NCBI RefSeq assembly: GCF_001984155.1
Contig: NZ_MTQO01000053.1
Location: 310,001 to 374,000, forward strand
DNA: 64,000 nt
Direction of reading: 5' to 3'
Source: Actinosynnema sp. ALI-1.44
GTDB lineage: Bacteria > Actinomycetota > Actinomycetes > Mycobacteriales > Pseudonocardiaceae
Shown: positions 40,196 through 48,530 of the stretch, piece by piece
Layout of the letters: every line of letters begins with the position of its first letter
Numbering within the stretch: the stretch's first letter is position 1
Made by a program: the position numbers and the translations under genes
Notes under the pieces: model-generated
The model's input: only the letters and a program-made list of their open reading frames with translations
Told to the model about the DNA's origin: nothing
Databases searched by the model: none

Positions 40196-40855
40196 GTGAA
40201 GAGAGCTCTGGTGACGGGTGCGTCCGGCGGGATCGGGGCGGCGATCGCCCGGCTGTTGGCGCCGACGCACGAGGTGTGGCTGGGCGGCCGCACGATCCCC
40301 GAGGACCTGCCGGGCCGGCCCTGGCCACTGGACCTGCGGGATTTCGACGCGTTCGAGGAGCGCACCGCCGAGATCGGCGACCTCGACGTGCTCGTGCACA
40401 GCGCGGCCATGAGCGACCTGGGGCCGGTGGCGACCACGTCGCTGCAGACCTGGCGTGACACGTTCGAGTTGAACGTCTTCGCTGTGGCGGAGCTCACCAG
40501 GGTGCTGCTGCCCAAGCTCCGGGCGGCCAAGGGGCACGTGGTGCTGATCAACTCCGGCGCCGGGATCCGGATCAACGCAACGTGGGGGTCCTACGGCGCC
40601 AGCAAGTTCGCGTTGCGGGCGTACGCCGACGCACTCAGGGCCGAGGAGCCTGACCTGCGTGTGACCTCGGTCTTCCCTGGTCGGACGGCCACCGAGATGC
40701 AGCGCAAGGTGCGCGCGACCGAGGGCGGCGCGTACGAGCCGGAGAACTACCTCAAGCCCGAGTCGGTCGCCACGGCGGTGCTCAACGCCATCAACGCGAC
40801 CGACGACGCGCACCCGACCGAAGTGATCATCCGCCAGCGAGCAACCGCTGGCTGA
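40196..40855 (+). CDS. Short-chain dehydrogenase/reductase
   Basis: 219 residues, GTG start. Classical SDR: cofactor motif TGASGGIGAAIARLLA (7-22), LVHSAAM (NNAG equivalent), and catalytic YGASK with an upstream Ser in INSGAGI. Shorter than average, with Thr in the NxTAT... C-terminal half. NADPH preference is likely from the lack of an acidic residue after strand 2 (GGRTI). Substrate unknown. Its 3' end overlaps the convergent amidohydrolase gene by 29 bases. Confidence 0.87.
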   Translation: MKRALVTGASGGIGAAIARLLAPTHEVWLGGRTIPEDLPGRPWPLDLRDFDAFEERTAEIGDLDVLVHSAAMSDLGPVATTSLQTWRDTFELNVFAVAELTRVLLPKLRAAKGHVVLINSGAGIRINATWGSYGASKFALRAYADALRAEEPDLRVTSVFPGRTATEMQRKVRATEGGAYEPENYLKPESVATAVLNAINATDDAHPTEVIIRQRATAG

Positions 40856-42137
40856 CGGCGCCGGCCAGGGCCTGTGCCTCGGCCCGGTCCACCCGTGTCG
40901 TCTCGAAGTCCTCGACCACCTTGTCGCCCGCGACCCACACGTCCTCGACCTGACGCGCACCCGCCGCCCACACCACATTGGACAGCAGTTGCGCGTCGGG
41001 CACGTCGACACCGGCCGAGAACGCGGGCGCGTCGGTGCTGATGTGCACGAGGTCCGCCCAGCGCCCCTGTTCGATCGCGCCGATGTCGTCGCGGCCGATC
41101 GCGGCCGCGCCGTGCCGGGTCGCCATCAGCAGCACGTCCGGCGCGATCAGCGCTGAGGCGTCCATGGTGGACAGGCGGCTGAGCAACGCGGCCAGCCGCA
41201 CCTCCTCCCACAGGTCCAGGTCGTCGTTGCTGGCGGGGCCGTCCGTGCCGATGCCCACTGTCACACCGGCTTCGCGCAGGTCGCGCACCCGCGCGATGCC
41301 GGATGCCAGCTTGGCGTTCGAGCCGGGGCAGTGCGCGACCGCGACCCCGTGCCTCGCGAAGATCGAGATGTCCTCGTCGGACAGGTGGACGCAGTGCGCG
41401 GCAATCACCCGGCCGCCGTAGAAACCCAACGATTCCAACAACTTCGGTACCGAACCGTGCTCGGCGCGCTGCACCGAGTCCTCAAGCGCCGCTTCGGCGA
41501 CGTGGATGTGCATCAAGGCGCCACGGTCGTGCGCCGCGGCCGCGACCTCGGTCAGGATCTCCGGCGGCAGCGTGTACGCCGAGTGCGGGCCGTACCCGAT
41601 CTCGATCCGGTCACCCGGCCCGAACCGCAGGCCCTCGACGTCGATCAGCCTGCTCACGTCGTCGATCAGCGACCGCAGCTTGAAGCCGGGCGCGTCGATG
41701 ATCCCGCCGGTCAGCACCGCCCTGCCCCCGGTCCGCAGCACCACCTCGGCGAGTTTGTCCAGGTTGAAGTACATCTCGACACTGGTGGTCACCCCGGCGC
41801 GGAGCATCTCGACCGACCCGAGGAGCATCCCCGCGGCCATGTCCGACGCGCTCAGTTGCGCCTCGGCAGGCCAGATGACTTCATGCAGCCAGCGCAGCAG
41901 CGGCAGGTCGCCGCCCATCCCGCGCAACACCGTCATCGGGGTGTGCGCGTGCGTGTTCACCAGTCCCGGCATCAGGATTCCGGAAAGCTGGGTGACCGGT
42001 TCGTCGCCGGGCGCGTCGGCGAGCGGGCCGACGTACCCGATGCGGCCGTCGTCCTCGATGTCCACAACGGCATCGCGCAGCACAGAACAACCCGGGTCGC
42101 ATGGCAGGACGATCGGAGCACGCAAACGCTGACGCAT
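40827..42137 (-). CDS. TRZ/ATZ-type amidohydrolase (SAH/MTA deaminase-like)
   Basis: 436 residues of the metal-dependent hydrolase superfamily. Metal ligands: NTHAHTP (HxH), HIHVAEAALE, AAHCVHLSDEDI and IGTDGPASNDDLDLWEEV (Asp). The DLDLWEE motif and overall length match S-adenosylhomocysteine/5'-methylthioadenosine deaminases and guanine deaminase-like enzymes. It would deaminate a purine nucleoside or related heterocycle; specificity cannot be decided. ATG at 42137; 9 bases follow the stop of the NOS-like gene upstream, so it may be part of that operon. Confidence 0.84.
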   Translation of the reverse strand: MRQRLRAPIVLPCDPGCSVLRDAVVDIEDDGRIGYVGPLADAPGDEPVTQLSGILMPGLVNTHAHTPMTVLRGMGGDLPLLRWLHEVIWPAEAQLSASDMAAGMLLGSVEMLRAGVTTSVEMYFNLDKLAEVVLRTGGRAVLTGGIIDAPGFKLRSLIDDVSRLIDVEGLRFGPGDRIEIGYGPHSAYTLPPEILTEVAAAAHDRGALMHIHVAEAALEDSVQRAEHGSVPKLLESLGFYGGRVIAAHCVHLSDEDISIFARHGVAVAHCPGSNAKLASGIARVRDLREAGVTVGIGTDGPASNDDLDLWEEVRLAALLSRLSTMDASALIAPDVLLMATRHGAAAIGRDDIGAIEQGRWADLVHISTDAPAFSAGVDVPDAQLLSNVVWAAGARQVEDVWVAGDKVVEDFETTRVDRAEAQALAGAVSQRLLAGG

Positions 42138-42146
42138 GCGGAAACG

Positions 42147-43129
42147 CTATCCCAGAAAACGGGGTGCGTGCTCCTCCGGTTCGCGCCTGGCAGGGCGCGC
42201 GTCCCGCGGTGCGATGCTCACACCCGCTGATCGGAACGAATGCAGCACCGCCCGGTCGAGTTCGAGCGCGGCGCGTTCTCGCCACAGCGAATCGTCGGTC
42301 GACGTGTCCAGGCCGAGGTGTTCGGCGATCACCCGGCCGAATCCGTACGCCCGGTCGTCGCCGAGCGCGTTCGCGCCGATCGCGGACGACGTGTGGATCC
42401 CGTTGAACACCACCGGGTACTCCAGACCGCCGATCGACAACAGCTGCGACCGCGCGCCGACCGCGTGCCAGCGCAGTCCCAGATCGACGAACCAGCCGAG
42501 CTCGGGGTGCTCCAGCGGAACCTCCCGTACGACATCCCGCGGCAACCCGAACAACCGAACGCCTACGCGATCGTCGCGCACGACGAGCGGCAACAGGTCG
42601 AAGGCGCTGCGCGCGGTCGGCGAACGCCAGCCCATCTTGCGCACTGTCTCGGTGAACGCGACATGCTGCGGTCGCCCATCACCTGACCGTGTTGGGCGTA
42701 TCCCGCGTACCGGATCAGGTGTTCGTTGATCAGCCTCGGGCTGTCCGGCGCGAAGATGGTCACAGTGGGCCGGATCCGGCCTTTGCTCGCAGCGAACCGC
42801 AGGTGTTGCACGCACCCGGTCGCGACCTCGGTCGCGGTCGCCGCCAGGCGCAGGTCACGCACCAGCAGACCGCGCCACGGGATCCCGTCCGTGTAGACAT
42901 CGCTGTCGCGCAAGGCGATCCGCGCGCCGTACGCCAGCTCCGCACGAGTGTGTTCGTACGTCCCGGTTTCCGCGATCTGTGCGCGGACTTCGCCGAGCCT
43001 CGTCCGCACGTTCCCGGCACGCGGACGCGCGCGGTGGTAGCGGTGCAGGAACTCGTCGGCGGCGACCAACTCGGTGGATAACAGGGCAGTCACCCACTGC
43101 TTATCGGCCGAATGCAGCAGTGGGCTCAA
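42147..43129 (-). pseudogene. Nitric oxide synthase oxygenase-like gene, frameshifted and truncated
   Basis: Two frames together give a NOS oxygenase: the first (start TTG 43129 or GTG 43093) reads TGTYEHTRAELAYGARIA, GRIRPTVTIFAP and HLIRYAGYAQHGQVMGD; the second, from about 42670, reads HVAFTETVRKMGW, FDLLPLVVRDD, VVREVPLEHPELGWFVDLGL, RWHAVGARSQ, GGLEYPV and ELDRAVLHSFRSAGVSI. Restoring one C after GAC gives GDPQHVAFTE, matching the conserved GDPxxxxFTE. The heme cysteine (WRNxxRCIGR) is replaced (LRDSDVYTDG, Tyr at the Cys position), the arginine-binding Glu (GTEIG) is SSAIG, and about 80 C-terminal residues are missing. Either decayed or altered in function. Downstream of trmB. Confidence 0.82.
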
Positions 43130-43866
43130 CTACCTGGTCGGGTGTTGCCGCGGCCGGGCGAACTACGGAGTGTGTGCCTTTCGAAGATCAGGTCGCGGAT
43201 CTCCCGGCCTTCGGTGTGCGCGCGTGACTCGAACTTGGTCACCGGCCGCCATTCCGGCCGCGGTGCCCAGCCGGAGTACACATTGCGCAGTGCCGTCTCG
43301 GCCGAACACACCTCGAGCATGTGCTCGGCGTAGTGCTCCCAGTCGGTCGCCATGTGGAACCGGCCGCCGGGGGCGAGCCGCGACGCCACCAGCGACACGA
43401 AGTCCGGCTGGACGATTCGGCGCTTGTGGTGCCGTTTCTTGGGCCACGGGTCCGGGAAGTACAGCCGAACCTCGGACAATGTGCCGGGTTCGATGTGGTC
43501 GGTGAGCAGGATGACGGCGTCACCGCGCAGCAGCCGCAGGTTGTGCACGTCCAGGTCGGCCGCGCGCATCATCAGTTGCGCCAAGCCCGCTTGGTACACC
43601 TCGACCGCGAGGTAGTTCACCTCCGGCGCCGCGGCGGCCAGTTTGGACGTCGTCTCGCCCATCCCCGACCCGATCTCCAGCACGACGGGCGCGGACCGGC
43701 CGAACCACGAGCCGGTGTCCAACGGCCCGGCAGGCAGGCCGGAGACGTCCTGGCCCCACCGTGGCCAATAGCGTTCCCAAGCCCGTTCCTGGCCGACCGT
43801 CATCCGCCCGCCGCGCTGGACATAGCTGACGACTGTGCGCCTGTGTACCTGTTGCTCCACCCGCAA
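43126..43866 (-). CDS. trmB: tRNA (guanine-N7-)-methyltransferase
   Basis: 246 residues. TrmB makes m7G46 in tRNA using SAM. Features: SAM motif VVLEIGSGMGE (61-71), YLAVEVYQAGLAQLM, FPDPWPKKRHHKRR (signature), ATDWEHYAEHM and FESRAH. The N-terminal extension (about 20 residues, basic) may be a false start. Stop overlaps the NOS-like gene; it lies 4 bases after the upstream unknown gene, so a three-gene operon is likely. Confidence 0.94.
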   Translation of the reverse strand: MRVEQQVHRRTVVSYVQRGGRMTVGQERAWERYWPRWGQDVSGLPAGPLDTGSWFGRSAPVVLEIGSGMGETTSKLAAAAPEVNYLAVEVYQAGLAQLMMRAADLDVHNLRLLRGDAVILLTDHIEPGTLSEVRLYFPDPWPKKRHHKRRIVQPDFVSLVASRLAPGGRFHMATDWEHYAEHMLEVCSAETALRNVYSGWAPRPEWRPVTKFESRAHTEGREIRDLIFERHTLRSSPGRGNTRPGS

Positions 43867-43870
43867 GAAG

Positions 43871-44464
43871 CTAGAACACCGTCTCCCACCGGGCGAGATT
43901 GGACCGCAGATCGCCCATTCCCTTCACGGCGAGCGGCGTCGGCGACTGCGCGGTGGTCAGGTGCACGGGGTGGATGTCCAGCCAGCCGTCGTGCCGGTGG
44001 GTGAACACCAGCGTCGTCGGCACGGCCGGTCCGGTGACGCGGCGCTCGGAAGGCATGTACTCCCAATAGCCGCTGTCGCCGTCGCTGTACCACGGCACGA
44101 AAACCCACCCGGGACGGGCGTCGAGCAATTTGCCGACCCGGTCCTCCAGAAGGAAACCTTCCGCCCGCGAGCTCAGTTCGCCTGCTGCCAACGCCTTCAG
44201 CCACCACGGCGCGGCGAGCTGCCTGTCGACCTTGGACGCCGACGTGTACAAGGCGAGCACCTGGTCCTCGGGTGCGCGGTGGATCCACGCGCGGCGCGTC
44301 TCGGCCGGTCTGGTCGCTCCCGCGATCGACGCCAACGCGGTGTGCGGCTCGATGGCCTGCGACCATTCGAGCTCGATCATCGGCTCGACTCGTAGTTCAC
44401 GGCGTGCCCTTGGCACGACCGGCTCCTGTGGTTCGGTAGGAGCGCTTACATCAGTGACCGTCAA
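43871..44464 (-). CDS. Unknown protein upstream of trmB
   Basis: 197 residues if started at the TTG at 44464, which follows GGAGG by 6 bases; a longer frame to 44551 lacks a ribosome-binding site. No transmembrane helix or signal peptide. Contains two domain-like segments: MIELEWSQAIEPHTALASI ... AWIHRAPEDQVLALYTSA and a C-terminal region WVFVPWYSDGDSGYWEYMPS ... VFTHRHDGWLDIHPVHLTT. No family recognised. Predicted first gene of the operon with trmB and the NOS-like gene. Confidence 0.65.
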   Translation of the reverse strand: MTVTDVSAPTEPQEPVVPRARRELRVEPMIELEWSQAIEPHTALASIAGATRPAETRRAWIHRAPEDQVLALYTSASKVDRQLAAPWWLKALAAGELSSRAEGFLLEDRVGKLLDARPGWVFVPWYSDGDSGYWEYMPSERRVTGPAVPTTLVFTHRHDGWLDIHPVHLTTAQSPTPLAVKGMGDLRSNLARWETVF

Positions 44465-44657
44465 CGTCCACCTCCGATGGTTCGTGACGGGGTCAACATC
44501 GATCTGAGCGCTAGTCGAACACCGTTGTCCGCGAACTGTGCAAGGACTCACAGCCTCTTTACGTGGTCTTAACCAGACCGCATGCGCTAGATCGCTTCGT
44601 TACATCCTTGCAAGCGCGTGCGGTGATCGCAACCGTCCGTGACCAGACCAACAGAGG

Positions 44658-44750: not shown

Positions 44751-45509
44751 TCAGGCGTCGCGCCTCTTGGCGACCACGATGGCGATCACCAGCATGACGA
44801 CGGAGAAGCCCGCGAAGTAGGCGAGCGCGGCCCACGGCGGGAGGGTGCTGGTCGACGAACCGGGACCCTGGAAGTCGACCGCTCTTTCCGGGTTGCCGGT
44901 CAGGAACCGGTAGGCGACGTTGAACGGCAACCACTTGTGGATGTCGGCGCCGACGCTCGGGATGAGCTGGACCAGGTTCTCGGCGACCAGCGAGTACGCC
45001 AGCAGGATCGAGACGGCACCAGCGGTCTGCCTGATCAGGATGCCGACGGACACCGCGACCACCGCGGCGAAGAGCGTCACCAGGCCGGTGCCCGCGATCT
45101 GGCGCCAGTCGGCCTCGCTGTTGAGCGCCATGTCGGCGTTCGGCTGGATCAGCGAAGCGATGCCCAGCGACCCGAAGGCCGCGACCAGACCGAGCACGCC
45201 CGCGGTGAACGCGACCACGATCGTCTTGGCCAGCAGGGCGGACGTCCGGCTCGGCACGGCCTGGAACGTCGTCTTGATGGTGTTGAAGCGGTACTCGGTG
45301 GTCACCGACAGCGTGGCGAGCACGAGGATCACGGCGAGCGCGAAGCTGAACCCGAACTGGGAGACCGGGACCGACACCTGACCAGGGTTGCTGGCCGACG
45401 CGCTGACCAGTCCGGCGAAACCGACCATCAGCCCGAGTGCCAGTGCCATGCACCACCACGGCGAGCGCGTGGAGAAGAGCTTGATTCGTTCGACAGCGAG
45501 CAGGGTCAT
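44751..45509 (-). CDS. ABC-2 type transporter permease
   Basis: 252 residues with six predicted transmembrane helices; opens MTLLAVERIKLFSTRSPWWCMALAL and includes SVTTEYRFNTIKTTFQAVPSR, a typical ABC-2 permease loop. Forms an exporter with the upstream ATPase (4-base ATGA overlap). Likely drug or lipid efflux; the neighbouring NarL two-component system may control it, as is common in actinobacteria. Confidence 0.87.
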   Translation of the reverse strand: MTLLAVERIKLFSTRSPWWCMALALGLMVGFAGLVSASASNPGQVSVPVSQFGFSFALAVILVLATLSVTTEYRFNTIKTTFQAVPSRTSALLAKTIVVAFTAGVLGLVAAFGSLGIASLIQPNADMALNSEADWRQIAGTGLVTLFAAVVAVSVGILIRQTAGAVSILLAYSLVAENLVQLIPSVGADIHKWLPFNVAYRFLTGNPERAVDFQGPGSSTSTLPPWAALAYFAGFSVVMLVIAIVVAKRRDA

Positions 45510-46444
45510 CGGTTCACATCCACCATCTGGTCAACGGATTCGGCAAGTTCGGTGCGGTACTCGACGGAGTCGCCGGTCAGCTGCATGAACGCCTCTTCCA
45601 GCGATCCGCGCTGCGGGCTGAGCTCGTGCAGCACGACCTGGTTGGCCGCGGCGATCTCCCCGATCTGCGCGGCGTCCACACCGGACACGATCAACGCGTC
45701 GGCGTCGTCGCGCATGGCCGCGTTGGTTCCGGCGAGCGCGTCACGCAGCTTGCTCACCTGCGGGCTGCGCACCTTGACGGTGTTCTCCGTCGCGGCGTGG
45801 ATGAAGTCCTCAGTGGAGCGCTGCGCGATCAGCCGTCCGCGCCCGATCACCACGAGTTCCTGCGCGGTCAGCGACATCTCCGACAGCAGGTGGCTGGAGA
45901 CCAGCACGGTCCTGCCCTCGTCGGCCAGCCGGTGCATGAACTTGCGGATCCAGAGGATGCCCTCCGGGTCGAGGCCGTTGACCGGCTCGTCGAACAGCAG
46001 GATGCCCGGGTCGCCGAGCAGCGCGCCCGCGATGCCGAGCCGCTGTGACATGCCGAGCGAGAAACCACCCGCGCGCTTCTTGGCCACGGCGGTCAGGCCC
46101 ACGAGGTCGAGCACCTCGTCCACCCGGCGGGTGGGGATCTTGTTGGACACGGCCATCCAGCGCAAGTGCGCGTAAGCCGACCTGTTCGGGTGCACCCACT
46201 TGGCGTCCAGCAGTGCGCCGATCTGGCGCAGCGGGTGGTGCAACTCGCGGTAGTGCTTGCCGTCGATCAGCGCGACACCCGCTGTCGGGTTGTCCAGGCC
46301 GAGCATCATCCGCATGGTGGTGGACTTGCCCGCACCGTTCGGTCCGAGGAAGCCGGTGACCCGGCCGGGCTGAACCGTGAACGACAGATCGTTGACCGCG
46401 AGGGTCTTCCCATACCGCTTGGTGAGGCCCCGTGCCTCGATCAT
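45506..46444 (-). CDS. ABC transporter ATP-binding protein
   Basis: 312 residues. Walker A GPNGAGKST (35-43), Q-loop region, signature GFSLGMSQRLGIAGALLG, Walker B LLFDEPVNGLDPEG, and H-loop VSSHLLSEM. The C-terminal 90 residues are the usual DUF4162-like extension (VLHELSPQRGSLEEAFMQLTG). ATG follows AAGGAG. Operon with the permease downstream. Confidence 0.93.
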   Translation of the reverse strand: MIEARGLTKRYGKTLAVNDLSFTVQPGRVTGFLGPNGAGKSTTMRMMLGLDNPTAGVALIDGKHYRELHHPLRQIGALLDAKWVHPNRSAYAHLRWMAVSNKIPTRRVDEVLDLVGLTAVAKKRAGGFSLGMSQRLGIAGALLGDPGILLFDEPVNGLDPEGILWIRKFMHRLADEGRTVLVSSHLLSEMSLTAQELVVIGRGRLIAQRSTEDFIHAATENTVKVRSPQVSKLRDALAGTNAAMRDDADALIVSGVDAAQIGEIAAANQVVLHELSPQRGSLEEAFMQLTGDSVEYRTELAESVDQMVDVNR

Positions 46445-46677: not shown

Positions 46678-47334
46678 TCAGGCCTCACCTGGGCGGACGA
46701 GGCCGGTCTCATACGCCAGCACGACAGCCTGCACGCGGTCGCGTAGCTCCAACTTGGCGAGCACGCGGCCGACGTGCGTCTTCACCGTCGCCTCCGACAG
46801 GAACAACTTCCGGGCGATCTCGGTGTTCGACAACCCCTGCGCCATCAGCACGAGCACCTCGCGCTCACGGTCGGTCAACGCGTCCAGCACCGAGGCGTCC
46901 CGCAGTTGCCCACCCGAGGCGCCGAGGAAACGGTCGAGCAGGCGCCGGGTGACGCTGGGCGAGACCACGGCGTCGCCGCTCGCGACCGACCGCAGCGCCG
47001 CGACCAGGTGATCCGGTGGTGTGTCCTTGAGCATGAAACCACTGGCGCCGTTGCGCAGCGCGGCGAGCGCGTACTCGTCCAGGTCGAAGGTCGTCATCAC
47101 GAGGACCTTCGCCGTGCCGGCCTCGGTGATCAGTTTGGTCGCCTCGACACCGTCGAGGACGGGCATGCGCACGTCCATCAGCACCACGTCCGGCCGCAGC
47201 CGCGCCGCCAGTTTCACGGCCGCGTCGCCGTCCCCCGCCTCGCCGACGATCTCCATGTCCGGCTGTGCGCCGAGCACCATCCTGAAGCCGACGCGCATCA
47301 GCTCCTGGTCGTCGACCAACACCACTTTGATCAT
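46678..47334 (-). CDS. NarL/LuxR family response regulator
   Basis: 218 residues. Receiver domain with Asp54 in VVLMDVRMPVLDG and Lys in GFMLKDTPPD, then a LuxR HTH (LTDREREVLVLMAQGLSNTEIARKLF). Translated from ATG 47334, five bases after the kinase stop. Partner of the sensor kinase; probable regulator of the adjacent ABC-2 exporter. Confidence 0.95.
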   Translation of the reverse strand: MIKVVLVDDQELMRVGFRMVLGAQPDMEIVGEAGDGDAAVKLAARLRPDVVLMDVRMPVLDGVEATKLITEAGTAKVLVMTTFDLDEYALAALRNGASGFMLKDTPPDHLVAALRSVASGDAVVSPSVTRRLLDRFLGASGGQLRDASVLDALTDREREVLVLMAQGLSNTEIARKLFLSEATVKTHVGRVLAKLELRDRVQAVVLAYETGLVRPGEA

Positions 47335-47339
47335 GTTCT

Positions 47340-48530
47340 CTAGGTTCCCTGGATTGGTAGTACCGCGTGGACGTGCCACCCGCCGCCCGGCCTCGGCCCG
47401 GCCTGGAGGCTGCCGCCGAAGACGTTCGCCCGCTCGCGCATCCCGATCAGGCCGTTGCCACCGGAGATCGACACCAGCTCGTGCGGCGTGCCGAAACCAT
47501 CGTCGGTGATGTCCAGTTCGACGTTGTCACCGACCCGTGCGACACGCACGACCGCGGACGCCCCCGCGCCCGCGTGCTTCAACGTGTTCGTCAGTGCTTC
47601 CTGCACGATGCGGTAGATGCCCAGACCGATGCCCGCGGGCAGCCCGTCCAGCTCGCCCTTGAGCTTCAGCCGCACAGGCAAGCCGACGAGGCGGACGCGT
47701 TCGGCGAGGTCGTTGAGCGAGTTCGTGCCCGGCTGCGGGGTGCGTTCGTCGCCGCCGCCTTCCTCGGCGCGCAGCACGCCGAGCAACCGGCGCAGTTCGG
47801 TGAGGGCTTCACGGCCGGTCGACGAGATCGTCTTGATCGCACGCTCGGCCAGCTCGGGATTGGTGTGCACGGCGTACGTCGCGCCGTCGGCCTGCACGAC
47901 CATGACGCTGACCGCGTGCGCCACGACGTCGTGCAGTTCACGGGCGATGCGGGCGCGTTCCTCGGCGACGGCGATCTTGGCCTGGTGGTCGCGTTCTGTC
48001 TCCAGCAGACGCAGGCGCTGCTCCACCTCGGCCTGGTAGGCGCGGCGGGCGCCGACGAACTCGCCGAGCGTCCAGCAGAACGCCAGCAGGACGAAGATCG
48101 AGACCCCGGCGATCCACCACTGGTCGTTGATCCGCGGTTTGACCAGCCAGACGGCCCACAACACGGTCCCGATCGTGATCCAGACCGCGTAGATCGACGC
48201 CTGTCGGCGGCCGACGTAGACGACCATCGTGTACAGCGCGATCCCGACCGCGATGTTCGCGGGCCGGAGCACGGTCGGCTCGTCGGCCAGTGCATCGGTG
48301 ATCAGCTGCACGTACCCGGTGAGCAGGATCAGGTAGCACGCCACCATCGGACGGCGCCTGCGCAGCACGAGCGGGCCGATCATGCCGACATCGACCAGCA
48401 GGTACAGCCACAGCGGCTGCGGTGGGCGGTCGCTGACGAAGATCAACGACTCGAACAGCGCCAGGAAGAAGGCCAACAGGGAGTCGCCGAACGTCGGATG
48501 CTTCCGCATCCACAGGCTCAGCCGTCGCAC
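47340..48530 (-). CDS. Sensor histidine kinase, HisKA_3 type
   Basis: 396 residues. Four or five transmembrane helices (residues 15-155), a coiled-coil linker (QAEVEQRLRLLETERDHQ), phospho-acceptor His200 in ARELHDVVAHAVSV, and the HATPase module (VQEALTNTLKHAGAG, LDITDDGFGTPHEL, GNGLIGMRERANVFGG). GTG start. Together with the response regulator it forms a two-component system of the DesK/LiaS type, often sensing envelope or antibiotic stress. Confidence 0.92.
   Translation of the reverse strand: MRRLSLWMRKHPTFGDSLLAFFLALFESLIFVSDRPPQPLWLYLLVDVGMIGPLVLRRRRPMVACYLILLTGYVQLITDALADEPTVLRPANIAVGIALYTMVVYVGRRQASIYAVWITIGTVLWAVWLVKPRINDQWWIAGVSIFVLLAFCWTLGEFVGARRAYQAEVEQRLRLLETERDHQAKIAVAEERARIARELHDVVAHAVSVMVVQADGATYAVHTNPELAERAIKTISSTGREALTELRRLLGVLRAEEGGGDERTPQPGTNSLNDLAERVRLVGLPVRLKLKGELDGLPAGIGLGIYRIVQEALTNTLKHAGAGASAVVRVARVGDNVELDITDDGFGTPHELVSISGGNGLIGMRERANVFGGSLQAGPRPGGGWHVHAVLPIQGT

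Follow-up and report, generated by a model that had tools for sequence, protein, structure and literature searches.

We analysed a window of 64,000 nucleotides (the whole stretch of DNA, positions 310,001 to 374,000 of contig NZ_MTQO01000053.1) from Actinosynnema sp. ALI-1.44, whose minus strand carries at 42147–43129 a short homologue of the oxygenase part of nitric oxide synthase (NOS), with a tyrosine in place of the heme-ligating cysteine. With about as much confidence as doubt, we propose that actinobacteria have on at least two independent occasions turned the NOS fold into a conserved protein without heme-thiolate chemistry, by replacement of this Cys with Tyr and, in a family coded f59, with Gly. 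The route linked to the tRNA methyltransferase gene trmB, to which the window gene belongs, would have been stepwise (C-terminus and proximal Trp, then Glu, then ligand), with an end product whose new function would be tied to its operon.

A NOS homologue without the heme cysteine

The first-pass annotation of this DNA, made from the letters alone, had joined two adjacent frames into a match to NOS oxygenase. This was borne out by a Pfam search, in which two overlapping minus-strand frames matched the NOS oxygenase family PF02898. The pieces and the two codons of interest are listed below; residue numbers (Cys194, Trp188, Glu371 and others) are what we take to be those of inducible NOS (iNOS), and the genome G005 is presumably that of Kibdelosporangium phytohabitans.

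42563–43129, minus strand: N-terminal piece of the short NOS-like gene, open reading frame (ORF) of 188 amino acids (aa); homologous part about 43129–42671; PF02898 positions 8–156 of 362, E 1.6e-32; 139/153 residues identical to the intact G005 orthologue
42147–42815, minus strand: C-terminal piece of that gene, read in a different frame, ORF of 222 aa; homologous part about 42677–42150; PF02898 positions 144–299 of 362, E 7.2e-44; 159/172 residues identical to G005
42893–42895, minus strand: Tyr codon at the position of the heme Cys (iNOS Cys194), in DVYTDG; Tyr in 7/7 intact orthologues
42381–42383, minus strand: Ala codon at the position of the arginine-binding Glu (iNOS Glu371), in SSAIG; Ala in 7/7 intact orthologues

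The two pieces were compared separately and the broken gene was left unmended; the change of reading frame was placed between about 42660 and 42690. Random similarity to NOS, which the annotation had named as a way for its proposal to fail, was ruled out by the E-values and by 2000 shuffled copies, the best of which reached 5.7 bits, as compared with 170 and 202 bits for the two pieces with a profile from which the subfamily of the window gene had been excluded. The annotated replacements of the heme Cys by Tyr and of the arginine-binding Glu by Ala were both confirmed from the codons, and Leu at the Trp188 position and the truncation could be read directly in the window frames. The C-terminal end is indeed absent: the PF02898 match stops at 299 of 362, and the pterin/dimer part (profile positions 300–362) is missing.

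Among the features of a functional NOS, the window gene retains homology of fold and sequence. By sequence it is a NOS homologue that falls outside the functional NOS on the proximal Cys, its Trp partner, the Glu and Trp of the arginine site and the C-terminal pterin/dimer segment. Synthesis of nitric oxide (NO) by the window clade appears very unlikely because the heme thiolate, the adjacent Trp, both substrate residues and the pterin/dimer part are gone, and we infer that without heme-thiolate chemistry no NO would be formed.

Orthologues in the genus and selection

An intact gene of the window type was recovered in all seven other genomes available for the genus (Kibdelosporangium/Actinocrispum), among them Kibdelosporangium philippinense, K. 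aridum, K. persicum, K. banguiense and Actinocrispum wychmicini, with open frames of 327–345 aa and a PF02898 match that stops at 299–300 in each. These orthologues, hereafter type IV, all exhibit the replacements Cys194 to Tyr, Trp188 to Leu, Pro344 to Gly, Trp366 to Ile and Glu371 to Ala, as well as Arg375 to Asp or Glu, and all lack Trp455, Trp457 and Phe470 (7/7 in each case). Val/Ile346 is replaced by Arg in six of the seven and by Cys in one; the pocket residues Phe363, Asn364 and Gly365 are retained in 7/7. The pairwise ratio of nonsynonymous to synonymous substitution rates (dN/dS) ranged from 0.046 to 0.266 (21 pairs), the corresponding values being 0.087–0.168 for canonical NOS (15 pairs) and 0.074–0.299 for a second, Cys-bearing copy (21 pairs). 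Since the residue changes are fixed in 7/7 and pairwise dN/dS is low, the type IV protein is a maintained one, under purifying selection.

The first-pass annotation had suggested either a divergent subfamily whose chemistry changed first or a gene decaying under relaxed selection, and had advised checking the two residues in intact homologues and comparing dN/dS. Tyr and Ala proved to be conserved in all seven intact orthologues of the genus, and dN/dS (0.05–0.27) indicated purifying selection; together with the shared truncation and the conserved gene order, these results support the divergent subfamily.

A record titled Rhodococcus rhodnii NRRL B-16535 (JOAA01000011.1, L062) carries the Kibdelosporangium locus with 96% protein identity; its genome is placed in the window's genus, and the record is probably that of a mislabelled strain.

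Types of short NOS-like proteins and order of losses

In the bacterial family of the window (family code f1, which we take to be Pseudonocardiaceae), 255 of 390 genomes gave a NOS-fold match at E 1e-30, and the neighbourhoods were then fetched. Four short types, assigned by motif, were distinguished among 59 aligned proteins: type II (LRDSGWCTSG-like motif; Glu at the Glu371 position in 19/26, Asp in 7/26), type IIb (GWCGSG motif; Thr in the Glu column, 3/3), type III (GWCP motif; Glu in 0/23, Ala in 19/23) and type IV, the window clade. The C-terminal segment (Trp455, Trp457, Phe470) is absent in 59/59 and Leu occupies the Trp188 position in 56/59. The short types share a tail of their own, in which one Pro is nearly invariant (mostly as Pro-Ala-Phe or similar) and which contributes to a short strand in the structure model of type III. 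The heme Cys is kept in all 52 short-type proteins outside type IV, as it is in the 23 rows classed canonical, which include three divergent full-length forms (L015, L016, L023). The fetched members linked to trmB represent 18 of the 46 genus codes covered by the family search; in one of these (g3, L194) the gene reads in two frames.

In a tree of 82 proteins, the short types formed one clade (Shimodaira–Hasegawa-like approximate likelihood ratio test, SH-aLRT, 99), and type IV was one clade (100) within a group of types III and IV (97). The grouping of IIb, III and IV received a support of 81, and type III alone was poorly supported (50). The 82-row alignment leaves out 53 of 135 profile matches (score below 420 or identical domain); both pieces of the window gene and the split canonical NOS of its genome are among those omitted. 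Both the short clade (98) and type IV (100) were recovered again in a tree of 98 proteins from which the Cys and Glu columns had been removed. A recent duplication of the local canonical NOS was ruled out by this separate clade, recovered with and without the two columns, and by its own locus. Two genes stand outside the residue table, each reading in two frames in a single assembly: L194 (G011), a trmB-linked short NOS-like gene, and L195 (G806), a canonical NOS gene.

Intact relatives with both Cys and Glu, which the first-pass annotation had set against its own proposal, do not occur among the genus orthologues; they exist only among the deeper members of the locus family (Cys in 52/52, Glu in 19/26 of type II), and it is these members that indicate the order of the losses. 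The simplest order suggested by the sequences is that the C-terminus and Trp188 were lost at the base, followed by Glu, either in a single event preceding the divergence of IIb, III and IV or in two events, and that Cys was lost last, since it is kept in every member outside type IV.

A second loss of the ligand outside the family

The search of the class yielded matches at E 1e-60 or better in 55 of 394 genomes, 53 outside the family and two within it (the window's own and another genome of the same family); all 28 that were fetched of these 53 carry the canonical Cys motif. At the level of the order, 49 of 249 genomes matched, 25 of them outside the family, of which six were read (G888, G806 and four of f59). 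With a short-type profile, the highest score outside the family was 480 bits, for the canonical NOS of G888, and the whole short types listed reached at least 559. The trmB-linked short type is likely restricted to one family.

The family f59 (possibly Cryptosporangium) has a short NOS-like protein in 4/4 genomes of genus code g192 (G791, G808, G801, G815; L190–L193), with Gly at the Cys position, in AWANAD[KR]GIGRLRW. It keeps Trp188 and Glu371 and has no WSWIVPP segment, and no match to trmB was found in the 9-kb stretches fetched around its genes. In the 98-protein tree it branched outside the trmB-linked clade, its placement among the other NOS being weakly supported (67). Because the f59 family lies outside that clade, the heme ligand was, judging from the sequences, lost at least twice.

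Locus and neighbouring genes

The neighbours of the NOS-like gene in the window are as follows.

43126–43866, minus strand: trmB, tRNA (guanine-N7-)-methyltransferase, upstream (TIGR00091, 163.6 bits, cut-off 112.65); its stop codon and the earliest possible start of the NOS-like gene overlap
40827–42137, minus strand: TRZ/ATZ-type amidohydrolase, starting 9 bases after the end of the NOS-like gene (PF01979, E 3.8e-63)
43871–44551, minus strand: 226-aa gene upstream of trmB, syntenic, with no Pfam or NCBIfam match; order conserved
44751–45509, minus strand: permease of ATP-binding cassette type 2 (ABC-2), syntenic (PF12730)
45506–46444, minus strand: ABC transporter ATPase, syntenic (PF00005)
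40196–40855, plus strand: short-chain dehydrogenase, convergent, syntenic in many loci (NF006073, 289.8 bits, cut-off 218)

The window thus has the order 226-aa gene, trmB, NOS-like gene, amidohydrolase and short-chain dehydrogenase (UNK-trmB-NOSL-AMH-SDR). The overlap between the trmB stop and the NOS-like start and the 9-base gap to the amidohydrolase suggest that these three genes may lie on one transcript; a later start than the trmB-overlapping one is possible for the NOS-like gene. The coupling to trmB and the 226-aa gene, already pointed out in the annotation, holds in the conserved gene order, to which the amidohydrolase adds a further neighbour on the same strand.

Loci L061–L067, which repeat the same species, were excluded from the locus counts and as separate rows of the residue table. 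We found trmB in 48 of 49 fetched short-type loci (stretches of 8–19 kb), the second copy L091 being the one without it, and in none of nine fetched canonical NOS loci; in 47/48 it is on the same strand as the NOS-like gene. The two genes are separated by others in some loci (e.g., L073, L075 and L107). An amidohydrolase match lies less than 300 bases from the NOS-like gene in 5/5 type IV and 17/22 type III loci; in 11/19 type II loci, a histidine kinase homologue stands downstream of the NOS-like gene, between it and the amidohydrolase. The window also has a histidine kinase beyond the ABC genes (46678–48530). Such a kinase is likewise found near the short NOS-like gene in L087, L096, L106 and others, in some cases with a LuxR-type response regulator.

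Other NOS-fold genes in the genomes

Three genes with a NOS fold occur in the genome of the window (11.7 Mb in 54 contigs), namely the window gene, L001 and a split canonical NOS. L001, an open frame of 357 aa situated 110 kb from the window gene, at 462 kb in an aldolase locus, keeps the Cys and is of type II; it was ruled out as an intact version of the window gene, being on a different branch of the tree. It is the window genome's representative of a second, type II copy present in the genus (L001, L017–L021, L029), which has Asp for the arginine-binding Glu in 7/7. The canonical NOS (G000:C51:1021356-1022385; L002, L004, L006, L007) is in four pieces in several frames, each well conserved, and a further weak NOS match on contig C36 is below the cut-off. 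Of the five NOS-fold genes in genome G005 (L014, L016, L023, L029, L030), two are divergent full-length forms, and canonical NOS, type II and type IV are represented by one gene each.

Origin of the frame break

The frame break is confined to the window assembly, the gene being intact in the seven other genomes of the genus. At sites where three outgroup copies agree, and with the two pieces counted apart, the window branch of the NOS-like gene bears 14 nonsynonymous and 10 synonymous changes and the branch of the intact G005 copy 13 and 10; the neighbours on the window branch bear 7 and 9 (trmB) and 8 and 8 (amidohydrolase). Decay did not precede the change of residues, because the break is limited to this assembly and amino-acid changes are not clearly in excess on its branch. 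The annotators' alternative of a gene decaying under relaxed selection is weakened by the near equality of the two branches, and a pseudogene that decayed first was ruled out by the intact orthologues and dN/dS. It is likewise scarcely probable that the whole subfamily is a relic drifting after the loss of NOS activity, with the window copy a pseudogene: the reading frame of this copy is broken, the canonical NOS gene of its genome likewise lies in four pieces, and the nonsynonymous share on the window branch is slightly above those of trmB and the amidohydrolase, but a drifting relic would fit neither the seven intact copies, nor the low dN/dS, nor counts practically equal to those of an intact gene.

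We lean toward a sequence error or a very recent mutation. For an error of sequencing or assembly, with the gene whole in the organism, we see the chances as evenly balanced. Five of 69 matching G005 proteins, canonical NOS among them, were split across frames in the window assembly, versus 0/30 for the same-region G005 proteins in G001, a control that covers the window's region only, and the window branch has no clear signature of decay. However, only two of the five splits, the window gene and a weak partial match, lie inside the region covered by the control, and the reverse test, in which 5/67 window-assembly frames were split in G005, implies that some splits reflect genuine differences or errors in the other assembly. 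The window assembly may thus be error-prone, the evidence being modest.

Discussion

We consider it rather probable that the NOS fold was repurposed in the window clade as a heme-free ligand-binding or accessory protein. The first-pass annotation had thought a repurposed NOS-like fold worth testing, and it is the best reading after the follow-up, with a putative biochemical role. The protein would be heme-free while retaining the NOS fold, would be co-produced with TrmB and the amidohydrolase that follows, and would either bind a small ligand in the remodelled pocket of the old active site or act as an accessory subunit of the amidohydrolase. Several observations weigh against this proposal. 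Constraint is weaker than in the canonical pairs, dN/dS reaching 0.27 with the Actinocrispum copy and 0.26 between K. persicum and K. banguiense. The amidohydrolase is adjacent in 0/19 type II loci and found in 0/3 type IIb loci, its adjacency being limited to types III and IV; the candidate operon partners are suggested by spacing only, and a conserved gene order can also result from common descent alone. The geometry of the pocket is uncertain because the heme loop (about 80) and the Glu loop (about 72) of type IV have lower model confidence. Finally, loss of the Cys does not prove loss of heme because Tyr can ligate heme in other proteins such as catalases.

This last point leads to the explanation that we rank next, although it seems unlikely, namely that type IV may bind heme through the conserved Tyr in a catalase-like manner, as a heme enzyme or a sensor of gas or peroxide with new chemistry. 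The replacing residue is always Tyr and the three pocket residues Phe363, Asn364 and Gly365 are kept, whereas type IV no longer has Trp188, Pro344, Trp366 or the C-terminal segment (7/7 for all of these), Arg replaces Val/Ile346 in 6/7, and the heme loop is modelled somewhat less confidently than in the Cys-bearing type III. Less probable still is that all short types are arginine or guanidine oxygenases served by another electron donor. The Cys of types II, IIb and III (52/52) and the Glu (19/26) or Asp (7/26) of type II would agree with such an activity, but no Glu is found in types III and IV (0/30) and the pterin/dimer segment is absent from 59/59, and this explanation fits type II at most.

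If the repurposing of the fold is correct, the stepwise dismantling of its catalytic site under selection, with vertical inheritance, would be a natural experiment on the NOS fold without NO and would show how a heme enzyme turns into something else. For annotation this carries a warning: in these actinomycetes, a gene that matches the NOS oxygenase family is not necessarily a source of NO. Among the papers listed in the literature searches, no title or abstract opening mentions short NOS-like forms of this kind, most subscription papers being out of reach.

The bacterial NOS oxygenases of B. subtilis and G. stearothermophilus have the same fold, and the NOS-like protein is 34–39% identical over about 300 residues to the solved NOS chains listed; in contrast to the window clade, they have the heme Cys, the proximal Trp, the arginine-binding Glu and Trp and the C-terminal pterin/dimer segment. 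According to one review, bacterial and mammalian NOS have a highly conserved catalytic site, and so do the natural-product NOS TxtD, RufN and PtnF, which are relatives of bacterial NOS (PMC9500659); that of the window clade is dismantled. The f59 proteins resemble the window clade in sequence and in the loss of the heme Cys and C-terminal segment but differ by keeping Trp188 and Glu371 and by their position outside the trmB-linked clade. Types II, IIb and III share with the window clade the trmB locus, the replacement of Trp188 (mostly by Leu), the truncation and the conserved tail with its nearly invariant Pro, and differ from it in having kept the heme Cys in 52/52 proteins and, in type II, mostly the Glu.
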